Below, in pieces: positions 1-44,819 of a stretch of 64,000 bases of DNA. The notes below the pieces were generated by a model. That model had not been told where the DNA came from, did no database searches, and worked only from the letters and a program-made list of their open reading frames with translations. Both the position numbers and the translations under genes were made by a program. This DNA is from Tissierella sp. (lineage in GTDB: Bacteria; Bacillota; Clostridia; Tissierellales; Tissierellaceae). Location of the stretch: assembly GCA_012735585.1 (NCBI GenBank), contig JAAYGX010000030.1:1-64000 (forward strand), given 5' to 3'. Positions within the stretch are counted from its first letter, which is position 1, and every line of letters begins with the position of its first letter.

Positions 1-676
1 CTTCTATATTGGTGTTCAAGGCCTTTGTATAATCAACTTTATCCATGTCTATAGACGTAGAGTCCTTTTGATCATATTCAACTATGCTATTTAGTACGGC
101 TGCCATATCCTCTACTGAGTTTGTTATAGGTACGATTTGGTCAAAGGTTGATCTAGCACCTATAACACCATATCTAGAAATCATACCGAAGGTAGGTTTC
201 ATAGAGAATTTTCTAGAATCCTGGGATGTACTTAGTCCCCAAATTGCCCCTTTGCGATCAAGTGTTTTGGAAACAGTTTGTGTTGGAGTAAGTCCAAACT
301 CCTTAACCTTCACTTTTCCAAGAATAATAGTGTCTTCTGCTGATATTCTCTCAACAACTGTAGCATCAAAAATCGGTATATAATTTTCTAAAATTCTACT
401 TCCGGCGCTAGTTAATACTCCCTTTGTTGAAATATCATCTGTAATAATTAGAGGTATACCTGCTAAAGGACCTAATGATTCTTTATTTTTTCTCTTTCTG
501 TCTATTTCTCTAGCCTTACTTATTGCTTCATCTTTTAGTATTAATTTATATATACTAGAATCTGCTGTTTCTTTTTCAATATTTGCGATACATTCTTTTA
601 CAATCTCTTCACTTGAAACTTCATTTAATTCCATCAGCTGTATAAGCTGGGAAATACTTTTATCTATTAAACTCAC
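1..676 (-). CDS. GatA-like amidase paralogue lacking catalytic residues (3' end outside window)
   Basis: Partial gene running off the left edge; about 225 N-terminal codons are visible. It starts at GTG 676 behind GGAGGG (682-687), 11 bp after the aspS-gatC stop, so it is translationally linked to that gene. It aligns along its length with the intact GatA encoded at 4741-6174: the amidase N-terminus, GIPL, SAGSRILENY, FDATVVE, ISRYGV and TFDQI are all recognisable. The catalytic Lys of GIPIGIKDN is replaced (GIPLIITDD), and the stretch carrying the GGSSGGSAAAV and SDTGGSVRQP catalytic serines is missing, reduced to a short GAIWGLSTSQD linker. The frame is open throughout, so this is not random decay. 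Known family: GatA makes ammonia from Gln for Asp-/Glu-tRNA amidation. Inferred: an amidase-dead subunit or scaffold in a second, Asn-specific operon. Confidence 0.75.
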   Translation of the reverse strand, partial: MSLIDKSISQLIQLMELNEVSSEEIVKECIANIEKETADSSIYKLILKDEAISKAREIDRKRKNKESLGPLAGIPLIITDDISTKGVLTSAGSRILENYIPIFDATVVERISAEDTIILGKVKVKEFGLTPTQTVSKTLDRKGAIWGLSTSQDSRKFSMKPTFGMISRYGVIGARSTFDQIVPITNSVEDMAAVLNSIVEYDQKDSTSIDMDKVDYTKALNTNIE

Positions 677-687
677 TTTTATCCCTC

Positions 688-2784
688 CTATTCATTAACA
701 TTTGGTACCAATATATATCCATCTTCTGAGGAAGGAGCATTCAATAATACTTCTTCAACCTTTAAGCTTTTCTTAACTTCATCCGCCCTAGTAACATTAT
801 TAATTGGATGAATATTAATGATTGGATCAAATTTTGCTGCATCTACACGATCTAAAATTGAAATAGACTCAATCAGATCTGTAAATCCATCTTCTAGCTC
901 TTGTATTTCTATTTCACTTAAAGATATCTGTGATAGTTCTGCTAATTCTTCTATATCTATTTTTGACGAGCTAATTATATTGGATTCTTCAGATTTTCTT
1001 TGAGAAGCCATATCACCAGCGATACCTATGCCTAATATATCTAATTGATCTTTGGCAACAGTACTTGGTGCCTCTGTCATAGCACAGCTGGCATCTCTCA
1101 TCTTAGGAAATGCTATTACATCCCTAATGGAATCAGCCTGAGCCATTAGCATTACCAGTCTATCTAATCCAAAGGCAAATCCACCGTGGGGTGGTGTACC
1201 ATATGAAAAAGCTTCTATCATAAATCCAAAACGTTCTTCAATCTCCTCTTTATTAAATCCAAGTGCCTCAAACATTCTTTGTTGAATATCACTTCTATGG
1301 ATTCGAATACTTCCACTACCTAACTCTATACCATTTAATACAAAGTCATAGCTCATAGCATTCATATTAGATAAATCTTCTTTTTTCATAAATTCATCTA
1401 CATCGGCTGGCATTGTAAATGGATGATGCATGGCAATATATCTATTTTCTTCTTCAGACCATTCTAGTAAAGGAAAATCTGTTACTATTAGGAATTTATA
1501 ATCCCATTTGTTTCTTAGACCTAGTTTATCACCTATATCTAAACGTAACCCTCCTAGTGTCTTGTACACTACAGGTAACTCATCGGCACAGAATATTATT
1601 AAATCTCCTGGCTCAGATTTACAAGTTTCGATGATTTCTTAGACTTCTGACTCACTTAAGAATTTAGTAAGTAAAGTCCTTAAATTTCCATCTGGCTCTA
1701 TTGCTATCCATGCCATACCTTTTGCACCATATGAAGTAGCCTTGTCTGTTAATTCATCTATTTCATTTCTAGAAAAACTATTGCCACCTTTTATATTTAA
1801 GGCTCTTACAGCTCCACCTTGATCTACTACATTTCTAAATACTTTAAATCCACATTTTTTTGCTATATCACTTAAATCAACAATTTCCATTCCAAATCGT
1901 AAATCAGGTTTGTCAGATCCATATAGATCCATAGCCTTTTGATATGTTATTCTAGGGAATTTTTCTTTAAAATCCATGTCCATTACTTGAGAAAAAATAT
2001 GTTTAAATAGACCTTCTAGATAGTTTAGTACATCCTCCTGATTTACAAAGGATAGTTCCATATCTACTTGGGTAAATTCTGGCTGCCTATCTGCTCTTAA
2101 ATCTTCATCACGGAAACATCTTGCTATTTGATAGTATCTATCTACACCTGAAACCATCAAAAGTTGTTTAAATATCTGTGGTGACTGAGGTAGTGCATAA
2201 AACTTTCCTTGTTCCATCCTACTAGGCACTAAATAATCCCTGGCACCTTCTGGTGTACTTTTAGTTAAAATCGGAGTTTCTACTTCCATAAAATCCATAT
2301 CATCAAGATATCTTCTTATGGCCTTGGTTGTTTTGTGTCTTAATGCTAAATTATCATATAGGTGTGGTCTCCTAATGTCCAAATATCGATACTTAAGTCT
2401 TAACTCTTCCTTAACATTTATATAGTCTTCTACAGGAAAAGGTAATGTTTTAGACTTAGATAAGATTTCTAAATCAGTAGCTTTAAGCTCTATGGTTCCT
2501 GTAGGGATATTTGGATTATATGTCTCCTCATCCCTTTTTCTGATGACTCCTTGAACCTTAACCACATATTCATTTCTTAGGTTCTCTACATCTAAAAACA
2601 TCTCCTCACCAATATCCTGTAAATCAAAAACTACTTGTAAGATCCCTGTTTTATCTCGTAAATCTAAAAATATTATCCCACCCATATCACGGGTACGCTG
2701 TACCCAACCAGTAACGGTGGATTTTTTTCCTATGTCAGCATCCCTTAAAGATGCACAATAATCTGTTCTGTATAAAGCCTCCAT
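688..2784 (-). pseudogene. aspS: Aspartyl-tRNA synthetase-GatC fusion, interrupted by one in-frame TAA
   Basis: The frame is continuous from ATG 2784 (SD AAAGGAGA) to TAG 688, 698 codons, except for TAA at 1639-1641 (codon 382). Before it lie the OB-fold anticodon domain, motif 1 region (ETPILTKSTPEGARDYLVP), motif 2 (RCFRDEDLRADRQPEFTQ) and part of the GAD insertion. After it come EIIETC, the rest of the GAD domain, motif 3 (GGFAFGLDRLVML), then a GatC domain (about residues 611-698, ending APSSEDGYILVPNVNE). AspRS-GatC fusions are known in some Firmicutes; AspRS charges tRNA-Asp/tRNA-Asn and GatC is the small amidotransferase subunit. Preceded by a T-box. Either a recent pseudogene, a sequence error (a CAA/AAA/GAA codon would restore it), or readthrough. 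An intact aspS elsewhere is expected, as AspRS is essential. Confidence 0.85.
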
Positions 2785-2804: not shown

Positions 2805-3095
2805 CAATAAAAAATACCTTCCATCCCCTATAAAAGGGACGAAAGGTATATATTCGCGGTACCACCCAAATTGATTATTATAAATAATAATCCACTCTTA
2901 TTCGATACAGGCTAAAAAGCTTTATATCTACTGCTGTAATGTAGCAGCTACATCTAAGTCTACTTGCTCATGCTTTCGGTTAGAAACTCCCAGATGTTTT
3001 TCAATTAAACTAAAGTACTGGACTCCCACCAATGCCAGCTCTCTTTCACTTATTATTTAATCTACTCTTCTGATCTACGTTTTTAAAATCATATT
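2805..3095 (-). promoter_or_regulatory. T-box riboswitch leader, candidate Asn (AAC) specifier
   Basis: On the minus strand the T-box consensus GGGTGGTACCGCG lies within 2851-2868. A terminator hairpin (2816-2847) followed by a U-rich run comes immediately before the aspS start. Upstream is a Stem I with the AGAGAG internal loop and GGTGGGAG terminal loop flanked by CTGG/CCAG, AAGT/ACTT and ATTAAA/TTTAAT pairings. In my hand fold the specifier loop contains GAAAAACA. AAC (2998-2996) followed by A is the best specifier, which reads asparagine; a GAA (Glu) triplet lies just upstream at 3002-3000. Uncharged tRNA-Asn would then derepress an operon making Asn-tRNA from Asp-tRNA, consistent with the AspRS-GatC product. 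T-box identity is firm; specifier assignment is a hand fold. Confidence 0.9.
2816..2847 (-). terminator. T-box regulatory terminator
   Basis: Arms ACCTTTCGTCCC and GGGGATGGAAGGT around a TTTTATA loop on the minus strand, followed by ATTTTTTATT, placed directly after the T-box sequence. This is the alternative to the antiterminator formed by the T-box bulge. Confidence 0.85.
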
Positions 3096-3309: not shown

Positions 3310-4740
3310 TTATCTTTCTTTTAACTTCTCTAATAAAAGTTTATTTACTACTTGAGGATTGGCCTTTCCTCTTGACTTTTTCATAATTTGACCTATTAAG
3401 AATCCAACAGCCCTATCTTTACCATTTTTAAAATCAATTATGGATTGTTCATTTTCATCCAAAACAGTATCAATCATTCCTTCTAATTCACCTTCATCAC
3501 TGATTTGAATTAGTCCTTGTTCTTTAACGATTGTGTTAGGATCTTTACCTGTATCAAACATATCTCGGAGTACCTTTTTACCAGTATTGTTGTTGATTTT
3601 GCCATCCTTTACTAAAGAGATTAAATCAGCCAATGCTTTGGCACCAAATTTAAGAGAATCAATTTCTAAATCTTCTTCATTGAGTCTTCTTAATACATCA
3701 CCCATAATCCAATTGCTTACCAGCTTTGTATCATTGATGTTTTTAACAGTATCCTCAAAGAAAGCAGCAAGGTCTCTTGATTGTGTCAATACTCCAGCAT
3801 CATATGAACTCAAGTCATATTGACTTATGAATCTTTCCTTTTTCTCATGAGGAAGTTCTGGCATATTATTTTGGATTTCATTGATAAAAGTATCTTCTAA
3901 TATAAATGGCGGTATATCTCCTTCAACTGCAAATCTATAGTCGCTTGCTCCAGCTTTACCTCTCATTAGTACAGTCTCTGCCTTTACTTCATCCCAACGT
4001 CTTGTTTCCTTATCCGTGTTTTCTCCTTTTTTTAGTAGGTCAATATGACGTTCTTCTTCATATTCTATTGATTTAACTACTGATCTAAATGAGTTCAGAT
4101 TTTTTATTTCAGAGATCCTTGTCTTTTGTCCTGTTTCGCTATCTACTACATTTATATTAACATCACATCTTAAGGAACCTTCTTCCATTTTACAATCCGA
4201 TACTTCTATATATTTTAAAGTAGCCCTTAAGTTTTCTAAAAACAATCTAGCTTCTTCTGCAGAATTCATCTCTGGTTTGCTTACAATCTCAATAAGCGGT
4301 ACACCAGCTCTATTGTAGTCTAGTAATGTCTCATCATTTTCCGTATGGATAGACTTTCCTGTATCTTCTTCAATATGGATTCTTTGTAAATGAACTTTCT
4401 TAGTTCCTTCTTCTAATTCAATCTCTATATATCCTTCACTACATATTGGGATTTCATTTTGTGATGTTTGGAATCCCTTAGTCAGGTCTGCATAGAAATA
4501 ATTTTTTCTATCCATCTTTATATGATTGGATATATGAGTGTTAAATGCAGTACCGGCTTTTATAGCATATTCTAATACTCTTTTATTCAACCTAGGAATT
4601 GCACCTGGCAATCCTAAACAAACTGGACAGCAATGACTATTGGCTTCCCCACCAAATTCATTTGTACAGTTGCAAAATATTTTAGTATCTGTCATTAGTT
4701 CCACATGTATTTCTAAACCAATAATAGTTTTATATCTCAA
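3310..4740 (-). CDS. gatB: Aspartyl/glutamyl-tRNA(Asn/Gln) amidotransferase subunit B
   Basis: 476 residues, normal for GatB. It is the kinase and tRNA-binding subunit that phosphorylates the misacylated Asp or Glu and receives ammonia from GatA. Visible features: N-terminal IGLEIHVEL, the metal/Zn motif with CNCTNEFGG and CCPVCLGLPGAIP, the cradle region (DYNRAGVPLIEIVSKP; MEEGSLRCDVNIN), and a C-terminal YqeY-like tail (LIGQIMKKSRGKANPQ). The ATG at 4740 directly abuts the gatA stop (4741-4743), so it is translationally coupled. Last gene of the gatCAB unit; a spacer with a dispersed repeat and the T-box leader follow. Stop is TAA. Confidence 0.97.
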   Translation of the reverse strand: MRYKTIIGLEIHVELMTDTKIFCNCTNEFGGEANSHCCPVCLGLPGAIPRLNKRVLEYAIKAGTAFNTHISNHIKMDRKNYFYADLTKGFQTSQNEIPICSEGYIEIELEEGTKKVHLQRIHIEEDTGKSIHTENDETLLDYNRAGVPLIEIVSKPEMNSAEEARLFLENLRATLKYIEVSDCKMEEGSLRCDVNINVVDSETGQKTRISEIKNLNSFRSVVKSIEYEEERHIDLLKKGENTDKETRRWDEVKAETVLMRGKAGASDYRFAVEGDIPPFILEDTFINEIQNNMPELPHEKKERFISQYDLSSYDAGVLTQSRDLAAFFEDTVKNINDTKLVSNWIMGDVLRRLNEEDLEIDSLKFGAKALADLISLVKDGKINNNTGKKVLRDMFDTGKDPNTIVKEQGLIQISDEGELEGMIDTVLDENEQSIIDFKNGKDRAVGFLIGQIMKKSRGKANPQVVNKLLLEKLKER

Positions 4741-6174
4741 TTATTTCACCATCCCTTCAATTGCAAGTCCAAGATTTATTATGTCTTCTTCACCAAATTT
4801 ATTACCTATGATTTGGATTCCTATTGGTAGTCTATCACCATTAAATAAAGGTAAATTCATAGCACAAAGACCTGCTAGATTTACTGGTACTGTGAACAAA
4901 TCCCCCTTATACATATCAACAGGATTCTCTATTTTATCACCTAGGTTAAATGGCAATGTTGGAGATGTTGGTGAAAGTAATATATCTACATTTTCAAAGG
5001 CTTTTTCAAAATCATTTCTAATCAGTGTTCTAACCTTAAGAGCTTGCATATAATAATCCTCTGCATGATCTTCTCTTAATATATATGTTCCTAGCATAAT
5101 TCTTCTCTTTACTTCTTCACCAAAGGCTTCTGTCCTTGATTTAATGTATAATTCATCTAAAGTTTCATAGTCCTCAGCCCTAAAACCCAATCTTAGTCCA
5201 TCAAATCTAGCTAAATTTGCACTTGCTTCTGCATTTGATATCAATAGATAAGTCTCAAGAGCATATTTTAGATTTGGTAAAGATACTTCCTCTACCATTC
5301 CACCATTTTCTTTTATTAGCTCAATAGTTTTAAAGAAATTATCTTTTACTTGGTTCTCTATTTCTATATCGAATAATTCCTTTGGTATTCCTATTCTAAT
5401 TTTCTTTATATCTACTTCAGTAGATTCCAGATTAAGGTTCAAATCCATACTTACAGAAGTAGGATCTTTTTCATCATATCCAGACAATATGGATAGCATT
5501 AATGCTGCGTCCTCAGTATCCTTAGCTATTACTCCTATTTGATCTAAGGTATTTGCTAACGGAACTAAACCATATCTAGAAATCCTTCCATAGGTTGGCT
5601 TAAGACCTACAACACCACAAAAATTTGCAGGTTGTCTTACAGAACCGCCAGTATCAGACCCAAGGGCTATGGCTACTTGATTAGATGCTACTGCTGCAGC
5701 TGATCCACCTGATGAGCCTCCTGGCACTTTCTTCATATCTAAAGGATTTTTACTTGCTCCAAAATAAGAAGTCTCAGTAGATGAACCCATTGCAAATTCA
5801 TCCATATTCGTCTTACCTATAATAATTCCATCTTCTTTTTTTATAATCTCTACAACTGTAGCATCATAAGGTGATACATAATCTTTGAGCATCTTTGAAC
5901 CACAAGTAGTGACCATATCCTTTGTTACTATATTGTCTTTGATCCCTATGGGAATCCCTGCCAATCTACCTAGCTCTTCCCCATTTTTTATTTTCTCATC
6001 TATTCTAGCCCCTTGAGATCTAGCCCCTTCTTTATCAACAGTAATAAATGCATTGATATCCTTATCTTTCTCTTCAATATGTTTTATATAGGCTTCTACC
6101 ACTTCTGTGGCAGTTATTTCTCTATTTATTATCTTGTCTCTTATATCTCTTGCTTTTAAATCTAATATATCCAC
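4741..6174 (-). CDS. gatA: Aspartyl/glutamyl-tRNA amidotransferase subunit A (intact amidase)
   Basis: About 477 residues. Glutaminase (amidase-signature) subunit delivering ammonia to GatB. The catalytic Ser-cisSer-Lys set is present: Lys in GIPIGIKDN (about residue 80) and the serines in GGSSGGSAAAVAS and SDTGGSVRQPA; GLKPTYGRISRYG and the C-terminal region are normal. I place the start at GTG 6174 because GAGAGGTG at 6181-6188 is well spaced for it; an upstream GTG at 6183 overlaps that SD. Follows gatC by 14 bp. It is the functional counterpart to the degenerate paralogue at the left edge and a useful internal control for that comparison. Confidence 0.97.
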   Translation of the reverse strand: MDILDLKARDIRDKIINREITATEVVEAYIKHIEEKDKDINAFITVDKEGARSQGARIDEKIKNGEELGRLAGIPIGIKDNIVTKDMVTTCGSKMLKDYVSPYDATVVEIIKKEDGIIIGKTNMDEFAMGSSTETSYFGASKNPLDMKKVPGGSSGGSAAAVASNQVAIALGSDTGGSVRQPANFCGVVGLKPTYGRISRYGLVPLANTLDQIGVIAKDTEDAALMLSILSGYDEKDPTSVSMDLNLNLESTEVDIKKIRIGIPKELFDIEIENQVKDNFFKTIELIKENGGMVEEVSLPNLKYALETYLLISNAEASANLARFDGLRLGFRAEDYETLDELYIKSRTEAFGEEVKRRIMLGTYILREDHAEDYYMQALKVRTLIRNDFEKAFENVDILLSPTSPTLPFNLGDKIENPVDMYKGDLFTVPVNLAGLCAMNLPLFNGDRLPIGIQIIGNKFGEEDIINLGLAIEGMVK

Positions 6175-6188
6175 TAATATCACCTCTC

Positions 6189-6473
6189 TTAATCTACAAC
6201 TTTTAATATTTTAAAATATCCATACTTTTCTTCAACAGTATTCTTCAAGACTTCTTTTTGTGGAAGGCTTTCTTCAACCTCATCTCCTATAAAAGGGTCT
6301 TTGTATTGATTTACTTGATAAGTTGGCTCTATATCGGAGGTATCTGCTTCTTTGATATTCTCAACTAAGTTTAAAACCTTCTCAAATTCTTTAATAAATC
6401 CATCATTTTCCACATCATCAAAGCTCAACTTACATAGTTCAGCTATTTGAGATACATCTTCTTTAGAAATCAT
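6189..6473 (-). CDS. gatC: Aspartyl/glutamyl-tRNA amidotransferase subunit C
   Basis: 94 residues, the usual GatC size. Small subunit that wraps GatA and GatB and stabilises the amidotransferase. Shows the conserved start (ISKEDVSQIAELCKLSF), the FEKVLNLVENI helix, the SDIEPTYQV motif and a C-terminus ending YGYFKILKVVD. Strong AAAGGAGG upstream of ATG 6473. First gene of gatCAB, 66 bp downstream of ligA, so it may share the pcrA-ligA transcript. A second GatC domain is fused to the interrupted AspRS at 688-2784, so the window carries two GatC versions. Confidence 0.95.
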   Translation of the reverse strand: MISKEDVSQIAELCKLSFDDVENDGFIKEFEKVLNLVENIKEADTSDIEPTYQVNQYKDPFIGDEVEESLPQKEVLKNTVEEKYGYFKILKVVD

Positions 6474-39016: not shown

Positions 39017-40363
39017 TTAATCCTCCTTTTCAATAGGGTAATTTCCATTGAAACACCCAGTGCAGAATCCATTTTTTTGCCCTGTTGATTCAAGTAAACC
39101 TTCCAATGAAATATATTCCAATGAATCAGCGCCTGTTAATTTACATATCTCTTCCTTAGTATAATTAGCTCCAATAAGATGCTTTTCATTTGGCGTATCC
39201 ATCCCAAGATGGCATGAACGTGTAACTTGAGCAGAACTTATCCTTACATGAACTTCCTTTGCACCTGCATTTTTTAACATTTCAACAGTTCTTTTTATAG
39301 TAGTTCCTCTTACTATGGAGTCATCCACTAAGACCAACCTTTTTCCTTCTACATTTTCCTTTAATGCATTCAGCTTGATCTTTACTCCTTGGTCCCTTAG
39401 CTCCTGTGTAGGTTGAATAAAAGTTCTTCCAACGTATCTATTCTTTACGATACCTTCTGCATAGGGAATTCCTGATTCTTCAGCATAACCAATAGCTGCT
39501 ACAATACCTGAATCAGGCGCACCTATGACTATATCCGCATCTACGGGGTGTTCTCGTGCAAGGACTCTACCAGCTTCATTTCTACTTAGATAGATACTCT
39601 TACCATCTACTTTACTATCTGGTCTGGCAAAATATATGGACTCAAATAGGCATAGACTTCTAGGTTGTGGATCGTTTTTAATAGTTCTTAATCCAGTATG
39701 ATCAATTACTACAATCTCTCCTGGCCCCACATCCCTGACAAATTCAGCACCCATCGTATCAAAGGCACAAGTTTCTGAAGCCAATACATAGCTATTTCTA
39801 AACTTCCCTATGGACAATGGCTTAAGCCCATAAGGGTCTCTAGCACCGATGATTCTATCGTTGGTCATTATAATTAAGGTATATGAACCTCTGATATCTT
39901 CTAGGGCTTTAATTATTGCCTCATTTACATCATCTTTATGATATCTTGCGATTAAGTTTGCTATGACTTCAGCATCTAAATCCGACTGGAATATACTGCC
40001 TTTATCTTCTAACTCATCTCTTAAACTATTAAAATTGACTAATTTGCCATCATGAACCAATGCTAGGGCACCTTTTCTATAACCTACTACTAAAGGCTCT
40101 GCATTTTTTACATTTCTTTCTTGAGAGGAAAATCCATGTCTTACATGACCTAGGGCAATGTTGCCTCTTAATCTTTCCATAACATCACCCAGGAAAACTT
40201 CATGTACCAATCCTAGATCCTTGAAGTAATCCACAAATCCATTATTGTTTACTGCTATTCCTGAACTAATTTGCCCTCTATGTTGTAATCCATATAATCC
40301 ATAATAAATTATCTTAGATACATGATCCATTTCATTGCTATAAATTCCAACAACACCGCTCAA
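39017..40363 (-). CDS. purF: Amidophosphoribosyltransferase with degenerate glutaminase site
   Basis: 448 residues from TTG 40363 (SD AAGGAGG). First committed purine step, PRPP + ammonia donor to phosphoribosylamine. The phosphoribosyltransferase half is intact: PRPP loop LVDDSIVRGTT, KNRYVGRTFIQP and the four Fe-S Cys of Bacillus-type PurF (CLFESIYF, SCHLGMD, CTGC). The N-terminal Ntn glutaminase half is changed at key sites: Ser2 (MSGVVGIYS) where the catalytic Cys of MCG is required, His76 for Tyr in GHVRY, Asp105 and Lys107 for the two Asn of HNGNLVN (oxyanion region). Arg75 and Asp130 remain. No upstream Cys start exists in frame. Likely needs free ammonia (inference). Lies between purE and purM. 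Confidence 0.95.
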   Translation of the reverse strand: MSGVVGIYSNEMDHVSKIIYYGLYGLQHRGQISSGIAVNNNGFVDYFKDLGLVHEVFLGDVMERLRGNIALGHVRHGFSSQERNVKNAEPLVVGYRKGALALVHDGKLVNFNSLRDELEDKGSIFQSDLDAEVIANLIARYHKDDVNEAIIKALEDIRGSYTLIIMTNDRIIGARDPYGLKPLSIGKFRNSYVLASETCAFDTMGAEFVRDVGPGEIVVIDHTGLRTIKNDPQPRSLCLFESIYFARPDSKVDGKSIYLSRNEAGRVLAREHPVDADIVIGAPDSGIVAAIGYAEESGIPYAEGIVKNRYVGRTFIQPTQELRDQGVKIKLNALKENVEGKRLVLVDDSIVRGTTIKRTVEMLKNAGAKEVHVRISSAQVTRSCHLGMDTPNEKHLIGANYTKEEICKLTGADSLEYISLEGLLESTGQKNGFCTGCFNGNYPIEKED

Positions 40364-40869: not shown

Positions 40870-43800
40870 CTAGTCAAAGTACTTTATACCTGATTCAAAT
40901 ATATTGTGCACACCTTTTATATTCACATTTTTATATAATCCATCATCTATTCTGTCGATTCCAGTTAATGTTCCAAATATATTTCCCCTTTGACAAGATA
41001 AGGATTCAATTCTTAAGTCTGAACCTGTAAGATTTGAACCTGCAACAAACTCAGTTGTTATTTGGTCTAAGGTAACATTACTACCACCTACAGGAAGTAT
41101 CACTCTACCTTCATATGTTGCTAAAGGAGCGGTATATACATCTCCAACTGACATTCCACTCAACCAAGGTGATTGATTGGACCTAACTTTCACATCAACT
41201 AAAGTTGATATAAATCTGTCTGATTGATTATTTGTAATTATTGTATTTACATCTTTAGGGCTGACCTTTCCATTATCTATAAGACCTGATTTGACTAATC
41301 CTAAAAGTCCATTGCCAATTCCTAGTATAAGCCCATCTCTTTGACCGGTATGTCCATCTATGGCTTCTTTTACCAAAGGATTACTCAATATTATTTTCAA
41401 TAAAATCCCACCAGACTCAGGTTCATTTCCAAGTAATGCTCCATCAGGGAAGGCAATGATATTAGATTGATTGATTTTATTAGCCAGTTCTCTATAGGAA
41501 TCTTCTATGCTTTCTTTGCTTAAAGTATTGAATACAAAGGCCTCAACATCTCCACCAGCTTTTTCAAATCTTTGGGTCAATGTATACTCACTGTGGGTGC
41601 CAGTAAATATTGGTATTAAAACTTTAGGCCTAATGTTTTTACTTATGTTTACTTTTTTATATTCATTGATAGCTTTATAATCATCTTCAACTTTTGCCTC
41701 TTCAATTGGGAATACATCTTTTAATGGACTTTCCCATGATTTAAGAAGCTCTTGTAGATTGATGGCCTCATTATTAATTTGAATTTCCCTTGATTCTATA
41801 GTACTTCCTAATACTTCAAAATCAACTCCTTCAAATTCCTTTACTAAGTCAAGTTCTTTTGAAGTCTCTAATACTATGGAACCAAATAAAGGTTTAAATA
41901 GTCTTTCCTTATTCATTGAATCAAATTTGAATCCTATCATATTACCAAAGGCCATCTCTGAAATAGTTCTAGCAATTCCACCATGTTTAACAGTTTGGGC
42001 TGCTTTTATTAATCCTCTATCTACTAATTCTTTTATTTTTGTATAGTTTGCTTTCAGTTGATTCAAATCAACTAATCCATTTTCATCTATATTTAATGGT
42101 ACTAATACTACATTCGTATCTCTTTCTTTAAATTCATTTGAAACTATATTTTGGACCTTATCAGAAGTAACAGCAAAACTGATAATAGTTGGCGGGACAT
42201 CTATATCTTCAAAGGTGCCGCTCATACTGTCCTTGCCACCGATACTTGGTATATCAAGCTCTTTTTGCACTAAGTAAGCACCTAATAATGCAGCTAGTGG
42301 CTTACCCCATTTATTCTTGTCTTCTCCAAGCCTTTCAAAATACTCTTGGAAAGACAGTCTCGCCTTTCTATAATCTCCACCTAATGCAGTGATCTTAGCC
42401 AAGGATTCAATAACTGCATAGTATCCTCCATGGAATGGGCTCCATTTTGATATATTAGGCTCGAATCCATAGGTCATAATTGAGCAGGTATTAGTATTTC
42501 CTTTTAATACAGGAATCTTTGCTACCATACCTTCACTAGGACTAAGAGCATACTTCCCACCATATGGCATTAGTACAGTACCTCCACCTACAGTATGATC
42601 AAAGTTCATAGCTAATCCTTTTTGACTGCCTATATTTAAATCATTCATGTTATCCATGAAAGCATCTTTTATATTATCTACATCAACAGATGTTTCATTC
42701 AGATATCCATAATCTGTTGGTTGCTGAATCCTTACATCCATTTTCTTTCTGATACCATTGGTGTCAAGGAAAGATCTTTCGATATTTACGATCTCTTCAC
42801 CTCTCCAGTTCATAATCAGTCTTTTTTCTTCTGTTACTGTAGCAACTACTGTACCTACTAAATCCTCTTTAACAATTTCATCCATAAATTGATCCACATG
42901 GTCCTTATCTATTACTACTGCCATTCTTTCCTGAGATTCTGATAGGGCTATTTCCGTACCATTTAGACCCGGATATTTTAGTGGTACTTTGTCTAAATCA
43001 ATAGTCACTCCATCTGCTAATTCACCAATAGCTACAGATACACCACCTGCACCAAAGTCATTACAAACTTTAATCATTTTAGATACTTCTTCTTTTCTAA
43101 ATAGACGTAGTATCTTTCTTTCTAATGGTGGGTTTCCTTTTTGGACCTCCGCACCACTTGTGTGCAGTGATTCCTCTGTATGTTCCTTAGATGAGCCTAC
43201 TGCTCCTCCTAAGCCATCTCTACCAGTAGGGCCACCAACCAATATGATTCGGTCTCCTGGCTCTGATTGTCCTCTAAATACCCAATCTTTAGGAGCTGCA
43301 GCTACCAATGCACCACATTCCATTCGTTTTGCCACATAACCTTCGTCATATATTTCCTTGACAAATCCAGTTGCAGCACCTATCTGATTGCCATAGGAGC
43401 TAAAACCTTCCATAGCTTGAGTCGTAATCTTTCTTTGAGGTAATTTCCCTGGTAATGTATCTTCATAAGCTTCTCTTGGATCAGCAGCTCCAGTGATTCT
43501 CATACCTTGATATACAAAGGATCTACCTGATAGTGGATCCCTAATAGCTCCACCTAAGCATGTGGATGCTCCTCCAATTGGTTCCATTTCAGTTGGATGA
43601 TTGTGGGTTTCATTTTTAAACATCAATAACCATCTTTCGGTTTTACCATCGATATCAACATCTATTTCTATACTTGCAGCATTTACTTCATCGGATTTTT
43701 CTTTATCATCAAGAAGGCCTTTCTTTTGGATCTCCTTCATATTAATAGTCGCTAAATCCATTAAAGATACTGCTCTTTCTCTGTCTTCATATACATATTT

Positions 43801-44568
43801 TCTTGAGGATAAATACGCTTTTATAGTTGACTCAAATATTTCTTTATATTTACCCTCTTCTAATTCTATATCTGTTAATTGGGTCATAAATGTTGTATGT
43901 CTACAATGATCAGACCAGTATGTGTCAATTAGCTTGATTTCAACGATATATGGATTTCTTCCTACTTCTTTATAATACTTTTGGCAAAATAAGAGGTCGT
44001 CCATATCCATGCCGATACCATACTTATCTTTAAAGTTTTTTATTTCATCTTCATTAAATTCAATAAATCCATCAATTACTTCTACATCTTCTACTGTATC
44101 TGATTCCTTCTCATAGGTAATACTGTTTAATTCTACTTCTCTTGACTCTATAGGGTTGATGTAATAGGACTTGATTTTGTCTAAGTTTTCTTGAGGAATT
44201 TCATTTACTATGATTATTTTGGAGTGTAGTGCTTCTTTGTCTTCATCAAGTAAAAAATTCTTTACCAAGAAATTCATGGAATCTTCTCTTTGATTGAATT
44301 GTCCTTTTAACATTTCTACTCTAAATGCTAATTCATTTTCGGCGATTTGAAGTTGGTCATTAATACGATACAATTGTGATTCATTTAGAACACTATCAAC
44401 CACAAGATTTTTTTCACTTTCATCCACATTGATCAAATCATAAACATTGACCACACGAACATATTCCAATTCTCTAATTCTTAAGTAATCCCTAAACTCT
44501 CTTAACAACTTCTTGCTTTCAGTACATAGAAACTTAGCCTTTTCCACATAAACTCTTTTATAATCCAA
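40870..44568 (-). CDS. purL: Phosphoribosylformylglycinamidine synthase (single-chain, clade II) with dead glutaminase triad
   Basis: 1232 residues, the long single-chain Clostridia/Streptococcus type. N-terminal PurS-like part, then the ATP-using synthetase: FKNETHNHPTEMEPIGGAS, FVYQGMRITGAADP, CNDFGAGGVSVAIGELADG, SIGGKDSMSGTF, FSPHGG-like FHGGYYAV. The C-terminal class I glutaminase domain (about 995-1232) is complete in length, but its nucleophile elbow reads LGIGNGLLGL with Gly1085 where Cys is required, and the His-x-Glu is Gly1203-Ile-Asp1205 (TLTGIDRID). The whole Cys-His-Glu triad is lost. The enzyme likely uses ammonia directly for FGAR to FGAM (inference). First gene of the operon, behind the tandem riboswitch. 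Confidence 0.96.
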   Translation of the reverse strand: MDYKRVYVEKAKFLCTESKKLLREFRDYLRIRELEYVRVVNVYDLINVDESEKNLVVDSVLNESQLYRINDQLQIAENELAFRVEMLKGQFNQREDSMNFLVKNFLLDEDKEALHSKIIIVNEIPQENLDKIKSYYINPIESREVELNSITYEKESDTVEDVEVIDGFIEFNEDEIKNFKDKYGIGMDMDDLLFCQKYYKEVGRNPYIVEIKLIDTYWSDHCRHTTFMTQLTDIELEEGKYKEIFESTIKAYLSSRKYVYEDRERAVSLMDLATINMKEIQKKGLLDDKEKSDEVNAASIEIDVDIDGKTERWLLMFKNETHNHPTEMEPIGGASTCLGGAIRDPLSGRSFVYQGMRITGAADPREAYEDTLPGKLPQRKITTQAMEGFSSYGNQIGAATGFVKEIYDEGYVAKRMECGALVAAAPKDWVFRGQSEPGDRIILVGGPTGRDGLGGAVGSSKEHTEESLHTSGAEVQKGNPPLERKILRLFRKEEVSKMIKVCNDFGAGGVSVAIGELADGVTIDLDKVPLKYPGLNGTEIALSESQERMAVVIDKDHVDQFMDEIVKEDLVGTVVATVTEEKRLIMNWRGEEIVNIERSFLDTNGIRKKMDVRIQQPTDYGYLNETSVDVDNIKDAFMDNMNDLNIGSQKGLAMNFDHTVGGGTVLMPYGGKYALSPSEGMVAKIPVLKGNTNTCSIMTYGFEPNISKWSPFHGGYYAVIESLAKITALGGDYRKARLSFQEYFERLGEDKNKWGKPLAALLGAYLVQKELDIPSIGGKDSMSGTFEDIDVPPTIISFAVTSDKVQNIVSNEFKERDTNVVLVPLNIDENGLVDLNQLKANYTKIKELVDRGLIKAAQTVKHGGIARTISEMAFGNMIGFKFDSMNKERLFKPLFGSIVLETSKELDLVKEFEGVDFEVLGSTIESREIQINNEAINLQELLKSWESPLKDVFPIEEAKVEDDYKAINEYKKVNISKNIRPKVLIPIFTGTHSEYTLTQRFEKAGGDVEAFVFNTLSKESIEDSYRELANKINQSNIIAFPDGALLGNEPESGGILLKIILSNPLVKEAIDGHTGQRDGLILGIGNGLLGLVKSGLIDNGKVSPKDVNTIITNNQSDRFISTLVDVKVRSNQSPWLSGMSVGDVYTAPLATYEGRVILPVGGSNVTLDQITTEFVAGSNLTGSDLRIESLSCQRGNIFGTLTGIDRIDDGLYKNVNIKGVHNIFESGIKYFD

Positions 44569-44637: not shown

Positions 44638-44722
44638 TTTATCCCTTCGGTGTAATGCCAAAAATATAGCATCTGTACCGCTCGGACCAGCAGATATATT
44701 ATCTCGGAACCCTAGGTACACT
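44626..44722 (-). promoter_or_regulatory. PRPP riboswitch (ykkC subtype 2b) aptamer
   Basis: Minus strand has the ykkC-class core: CCTAGGGTTCCG, CTGGTCCGAGCGG and ACACCGAAGGGATAAAAGCCC. Placement before purine genes and behind a guanine aptamer points to the PRPP-sensing subtype rather than guanidine or ppGpp types. PRPP binding should favour readthrough into purL. Established class; assignment by motif and context. Confidence 0.9.
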
Positions 44723-44794
44723 TTCGCCCATAGCCAATGATTTTCGGTCATTTGTAGAAACATCTCAACCATATTATGAGAATTATATGAGCTT
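44721..44794 (-). promoter_or_regulatory. Guanine riboswitch aptamer
   Basis: Minus strand: P1 GCTCAT/ATGGGC, J1/2 ATATAAT, P2 TCTCA/TGAGA with loop ATAATATGGTT, J2/3 TGTTTCTAC, P3 AATGA/TCATT with loop CCGAAAA, and J3/1 GGCTATGGG. The specificity base is C (position 44733), the guanine/hypoxanthine type. In tandem with the PRPP aptamer, so purine excess shuts the operon. Confidence 0.95.
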
Positions 44795-44819
44795 AATATT
44801 CAGTTTAAATCTTAATTAA

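Follow-up and report, generated by a model that had tools for sequence, protein, structure and literature searches.

A transamidation operon dedicated to asparagine is known from Clostridium acetobutylicum. In the portions of the reports cited here (Saad et al. 2012, 2013; PMC4052509, PMC4206432), a tRNA-dependent transamidation operon is controlled by a T-box, the specifier of which consists of overlapping GAA and AAC codons (PMC4052509). According to the cited portion of another report, an Arg of GatA binds the glutamine carboxylate, and yeast GatFAB takes 20 mM NH4Cl instead of Gln (PMC4027206).

The window analysed here is a 64,000-nucleotide stretch of a Tissierella sp. contig (G000:C213:1-64000), the contig beginning at base 1. 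As in C. acetobutylicum, an Asn-codon T-box goes together with an extra AspRS and an extra GatCAB for asparagine. The portions of the C. acetobutylicum reports cited above mention no dead GatA, whereas the GatA paralogue described here (GatA2) lacks the catalytic triad and no glutamine synthetase (GlnA) was found in the genomes that carry it. Compared with T-box AspRS-GatCAB asparagine operons as a class, the GatA2 loci have the Asn-specifier T-box and no intact GatA. The AspRS-GatC fusion encoded next to GatA2 has the domain order of the fusions modelled as NCBIfam NF009460 (PRK12820), but it scores 685.9 against a model cut-off of 1379, and the accompanying GatA of Tissierellaceae is dead. 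GatA2 itself shares its fold and gene neighbours with the GatCAB subunit GatA (TIGR00132; structures 2df4, 3h0l and 4wj3), but it is devoid of Lys-Ser-Ser and falls below the cut-off of the TIGR00132 equivalog model (481.1), with 290.9 bits for L106, 315.7 for L184 and 146.6 for the window fragment.

Two more distant systems offer parallels. Vertebrate carbamoyl-phosphate synthetase I is a glutamine amidotransferase that works with free ammonia, its glutaminase site having been lost. GatA2 shares the lost site and would, we propose, share the use of free ammonia; the difference is that carbamoyl-phosphate synthetase I is one enzyme with a class I GATase, whereas the loss described here affects a subunit with the amidase fold, belonging to a tRNA enzyme, along with several further enzymes of one lineage. 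The vestigial GatA-GatC-like complex in PDB 6c62, which we take to be AtzE/AtzG, is likewise a Gat-type complex retained for another purpose; the difference is that AtzE is an active hydrolase.

Active site of GatA2

The GatA2 gene runs without a stop for 225 codons up to the contig edge (Table 1). The fragment matches the Pfam family Amidase (PF01425) in two stretches, with an E value of 5.9e-38, and GatA of known structure (2df4), with an E value of 1.3e-32. When it is aligned to GatA1 of the ordinary GatCAB operon in the window, Thr79 stands opposite Lys82 of GatA1, and the block containing cis-Ser158 and the nucleophile Ser181 is deleted. Relative to S. aureus GatA, the window protein is about 30 residues short, with 19 residues between the aligned parts compared to 48 in 2df4. 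An earlier sequence-only reading of this DNA had described an open, alignable frame of 225 codons in which the catalytic Lys is replaced and the Ser-Ser segment is missing; the alignments bear out all three statements. The GatB1 proteins of Tissierellaceae, including the one in the window, read AVEGDIPP or a near variant where other GatB proteins read FPEPDL or FPDPDL.

Table 1. Positions of the features discussed in the 64,000-nucleotide window
Feature	Position	Strand	Remark
GatA2, N-terminal 225 codons	2..676	(-)	glutaminase-dead GatA paralogue; ends at contig edge
Junction in place of the cis-Ser and nucleophile Ser segment	203..265	(-)	about 30 residues shorter than 2df4
Codon 79 (Thr) of GatA2	440..442	(-)	where the catalytic Lys belongs
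AspRS-GatC fusion gene	688..2784	(-)	collinear with intact relatives apart from one in-frame TAA
GatC domain of the fusion	688..972	(-)	approximate; alignment and domain call on orthologue
In-frame TAA inside AspRS	1639..1641	(-)	an amino acid there in all five relatives
T-box leader, specifier region AAC (Asn)	2832..3086	(-)	Rfam RF00230, 127.7 bits
GatB1 of the ordinary GatCAB operon	3310..4740	(-)	comparison
GatA1 with Lys-Ser-Ser	4741..6183	(-)	comparison
GatC1	6189..6473	(-)	comparison; named by place in gatCAB order
PurF	39017..40363	(-)	Ser for the N-terminal catalytic Cys
PurL	40870..44568	(-)	C-terminal GATase with Gly for Cys

Orthologues, fold and selection

The sequence-only reading had proposed a search of relatives for conserved GatA-like proteins lacking the signature. 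Among 60 relatives, long open frames were found in G002, G001, G026 and G007 (64%, 56%, 41% and 39% identity to the window GatA2) and in G012 (41% identity over part of the sequence). These are five full-length orthologues of 404-441 amino acids, and the Lys, the cis-Ser and the nucleophile Ser are absent from every one of them. The G012 genome is that of a cultured member of Tissierellaceae, Tissierella creatinophila DSM 6911; the other four are metagenome-assembled genomes titled Tissierellia bacterium. With the window protein included, the Lys is replaced in 6/6 sequences (by Thr, Thr, Val, Ser, Ser and Glu) and the cis-Ser is deleted in 6/6. G000 (the genome of the window), G001 and G002 lack the nucleophile Ser through deletion, and G026, G007 and G012 have Glu in its place. 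All three residues are kept in 19/19 aligned GatA1 sequences. Chance similarity or an artefact is rejected, as six genomes from three genera share the loss.

The position of the Arg that contacts the glutamine carboxylate, placed by its spacing to a Glu, is occupied by Lys in four of the five full-length GatA2 proteins. In GatA1 of the carriers G002, G026, G007 and G012, Glu or Asn takes the place of the Asp that is conserved in the glutamine pocket; this Asp is kept in G000 and in 13 non-carrier GatA1 sequences, and the GatA1 of G001 is cut. Given these pocket substitutions, the GatA1 of the carriers may be changing too.

Both the PF01425 match and the comparison of a predicted structure place GatA2 in the amidase fold. 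The AlphaFold2 model of the G002 protein has a mean pLDDT of 86.8 and a pTM of 0.88, and the solved structures that it matches best are chains of GatA (for S. aureus 2df4, Z 44.2 and rmsd 2.0 over 417 residues, VIA-align); the alignment behind the model took in 25 intact GatA sequences, which favours a GatA fold. As far as the model goes, the GatA fold is retained without the active site, and the fold by itself is no proof of function.

Dead GatA2 proteins were not seen beyond the known copies. A scan of 249 genomes of the order gave scores above 600 bits for the five known copies alone; the next sequence reached 480 and the G000 fragment 361. Among the best 80 of 390 relatives in genome contigs, five had no Ser segment, 68 contained the first motif pattern at some point of the locus, and the remaining seven showed a variant of it. 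Among open-licence papers, searches listed none with a title or opening of the abstract that describes a glutaminase-dead GatA in Tissierella, which does not amount to proof of novelty.

Selection was read from the pair G026-G007, as other pairs are near or past synonymous saturation. The dN/dS of GatA2 is 0.167 at a dS of 0.89, compared to 0.134 for GatA1, 0.106 for GatB1, 0.085 for AspRS-GatC and 0.063 for GatB2 in the same pair. GatA2 is under purifying selection, which is weaker than that on its operon partners. A plain pseudogene, which the earlier reading had said would be recognised by frameshifts or stops further along the gene or by a dN/dS near 1 among relatives, is thus rejected for the family, G000 excepted: the five full-length copies are open throughout and the ratio is far from 1.

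Gene order, T-box and origin of the operon

The order AspRS-GatC fusion, GatA2, GatB2 is found in 5/5 complete loci, all of which encode gatB and gatC together with GatA2; in G000, GatC is present. These five genomes have two GatB copies each and the other seven of the 12 searched, G000 included, have one. GatB2 looks intact and, by inspection, retains the conserved GatB motifs. An intact orthologue of the fusion (L106) shows the Pfam domains tRNA-synt_2, GAD, OB and GatC. A T-box precedes the fusion at all six GatA2 operons (the window and five relatives) and also at L165, where GatA is intact; at L133 no T-box scored above threshold. The specifier region contains AAC in 7/7 leaders and an overlapping GAA in 5/7, the codon having been placed by eye. 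Only G001 has an asparaginase-like gene, named from its sequence, upstream of its GatA2 operon (L040, 4691-5662). None of the other four complete loci shows such a neighbour, and the gene was set aside as an operon partner for that reason.

GatA2 forms one clade (support 100/98) apart from GatA1. Its branches are long, that of T. creatinophila among them, which makes its exact place in the tree unsure. GatB2 is sister to the GatB of L133, L143 and L165 (100/99), and AspRS-GatC frames lie ahead of an intact GatA at L132, L133, L143 and L165. A recent duplication of GatA1 is unsupported, as GatB2 groups with the GatB of AspRS-GatC operons and not with GatB1, and the GatA2 clade is separate. Because the sisters of GatB2 come from AspRS-GatC operons with intact GatA, the GatB tree points to a likely origin in an older asparagine operon of Firmicutes, the GatA of which would have lost its chemistry within Tissierellaceae.

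State of the operon in the genome of the window

The earlier reading had pointed to the sequence on the left for the C-terminal half of GatA2 and for a second gatB. Neither was found in the G000 assembly, where GatB2 would lie past the contig edge; in the five relatives both are present. The AspRS-GatC gene of G000 carries an in-frame TAA, and so does its AsnRS gene (G000:C1 near 14982, L258); each has this one stop and no other lesion. By our own reading, no other conserved gene was clearly interrupted by a nonsense codon in the 280.5 kb sampled (235 ORFs of at least 120 amino acids); the stretches that hold these two genes had been included in the sample on their account. Given the stop in AspRS and the failure to find GatB2, the GatA2 operon may be broken in G000, or the assembly may be wrong.

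The interrupted AspRS and the missing GatB2 are what would be expected if the operon were being lost, with GatA2 a relic and its partners persisting for other reasons, and it also fits this explanation that GatA2 is the fastest-evolving gene of the operon and that the T. creatinophila copy sits on a long branch. Against it stand the conserved gene order and the five full-length copies, which are open and come from three genera, as well as the dN/dS values of GatA2 and GatB2, and we regard decay as an improbable explanation of the family. The regulatory remnant suggested by the earlier reading is improbable for the five relatives on the same grounds of open genes and purifying selection; for G000, with its AspRS stop and no GatB2 found, it may apply.

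Asparagine and ammonia supply

In a search of 12 Tissierellaceae genomes, with a control that was positive in 14/14 genomes, GlnA turned up in three of the six non-carriers and in no carrier of GatA2 (0/6), which is not a significant association (Fisher p 0.18). AsnA, the ammonia-dependent asparagine synthetase, was likewise not found in any of the six carriers and is present in 8/9 non-carriers (six Tissierellaceae and three from other families; Fisher p 0.0014, uncorrected for kinship in a set of few, related genomes). Within genus g6, two carriers have no AsnA and two tested non-carriers have it; in G010, neither GatA2 nor AsnA was found. AsnRS was not found in the carriers G001, G002 and G007 and is present in G012 and G026, so the GatA2 operon is not always the sole route to Asn-tRNA.

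The absence of AsnA implies that the carriers need some route to asparagine. It counts against a reading that we consider very improbable, in which GatA2 is a regulatory subunit that holds or tunes the AspRS-GatC/GatB complex as an organiser of a transamidosome, with amidation not its main role. The fusion of AspRS to GatC and the loss of the glutamine pocket do suggest a stable particle, and the Lys at the position of the carboxylate-binding Arg (for the role of which see the cited portion of PMC4027206) points the same way; the retained motifs of GatB2 do not.

Ammonia might instead arrive in trans, GatA2 acting as a docking scaffold in a mixed complex with another glutaminase or asparaginase, chiefly GatA1. 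GatA1 or its operon could supply the amide, as its Lys-Ser-Ser triad is kept in every carrier; the GatA fold predicted for GatA2 would allow docking, and G001 has the asparaginase-like gene just upstream of the operon. We nevertheless consider this unlikely: that gene is not beside the operon in the other complete loci, no GlnA was found in the carriers, and GatA1 is encoded away from the GatA2 operon.

Other glutaminase sites

The earlier reading had counted GatA2 as the third ammonia-releasing module in the window to lose its active site, and PurF and PurL are confirmed as the other two (Table 1). A purine riboswitch aptamer (68.8 bits) lies upstream of purL at 44711-44810 (-). We surveyed glutaminase sites in ten Tissierellaceae genomes, the enzyme names being our own reading of the sequences. 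The PurL Cys is Gly in 10/10 and the PurF Cys is Ser in 9/9 readable genomes (PurF of G007 is cut). Further Tissierellaceae genomes gave the same result, with PurF Ser in all eight that had a match (nine searched; 17/17 in total) and PurL Gly in 8/8 (18/18 readable in total). PurF also has Ser in families f2 and f6, and Cys in 16/16 other families (one genome each). PurL has Gly in f2 and f6 and Cys in f13 and f9; in this wider survey it was readable only where it lies near PurF, the other 14 families being unreadable. Nor did the searches of open-licence papers list one with a title or opening of the abstract that describes ammonia-dependent PurF or PurL in Tissierella, which again does not prove novelty.

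Other enzymes vary by lineage. PyrG has Ala or Ser for Cys in G000, G001, G002, G012 and G007 and keeps the Cys in G026, G015, G021, G003 and G010; loss of this Cys is associated with GatA2 carriage (Fisher p 0.048, from few, related genomes). GuaA has Phe for Cys in G003 and shortened GATase frames (411-414 amino acids) in G026, G015, G021 and G007; for the remaining five genomes this search returned no GuaA. CarA of G026 has Gly for Cys, and AsnB of G002 (L081) has Ser at the N-terminal Cys position. In two controls from the same genomes, GlmS (4/4) and hydrolase-like C26 relatives (11/11), the Cys is kept, so the loss of glutaminase sites is not general.

Discussion

A lost glutaminase nucleophile in GatA2 together with conserved motifs in GatB2 matches, at the level of sequence, the pattern of an ammonia-dependent amidotransferase. 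We think it likely that the GatA2 complex is an ammonia-dependent tRNA amidotransferase that makes Asn-tRNA(Asn) and replaces AsnA; from gene content and the lost residues we infer its use of ammonia, as we do its tRNA specificity and the formation of the complex. In our proposal, a second GatCAB has its GatC fused to aspartyl-tRNA synthetase, and GatA2 would be its structural, glutaminase-dead subunit. A rise in uncharged tRNA(Asn) would cause the T-box leader to allow readthrough into the operon, and the AspRS domain would then load Asp onto tRNA(Asn). GatB2 would phosphorylate the Asp side chain and amidate it, with free cellular ammonia and not GatA as the source of the amide, while GatA2 keeps GatB and GatC assembled. 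The resulting Asn-tRNA(Asn) would be used in translation and take over from the ammonia-dependent AsnA. Several observations weigh against this proposal: GatA1 has an intact triad in every carrier, so that it or its operon could supply or replace the function; the operon of G000 has a stop in AspRS and no GatB2 was found there; G012 and G026 have AsnRS; GatA2 evolves faster than GatB2 and AspRS-GatC; and G010 has neither GatA2 nor AsnA.

The sequence-only reading had offered a scaffold, or an ammonia-dependent partner in tRNA-dependent Asn synthesis, as possible roles. Both gain support from the conserved operon with AspRS-GatC and GatB2, the Asn-type T-box and the purifying selection, and from the failure to find GlnA or AsnA in the carriers and the family-wide loss of other glutaminase sites.

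For the lineage as a whole, we lean towards the view that Tissierellaceae and two neighbouring families have moved much of their glutamine-using biosynthesis to free ammonia. The glutaminase site is lost from PurF and PurL throughout the genomes read and, in some lineages, from PyrG, GuaA, CarA and AsnB; often there is no glutamine synthetase either. GatA2 would carry this shift into translation, as the first naturally ammonia-dependent tRNA-dependent amidotransferase, in place of AsnA. If this is true, GatCAB can function without a glutaminase of its own, and the amide donor for Asn-tRNA formation can be switched from glutamine to ammonia in the course of evolution. The family would then provide a natural series, including the cultured T. 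creatinophila, of how glutamine amidotransferases shed their dependence on glutamine, and GatA2 would show a use for a dead subunit, kept for assembly after its chemistry was lost.
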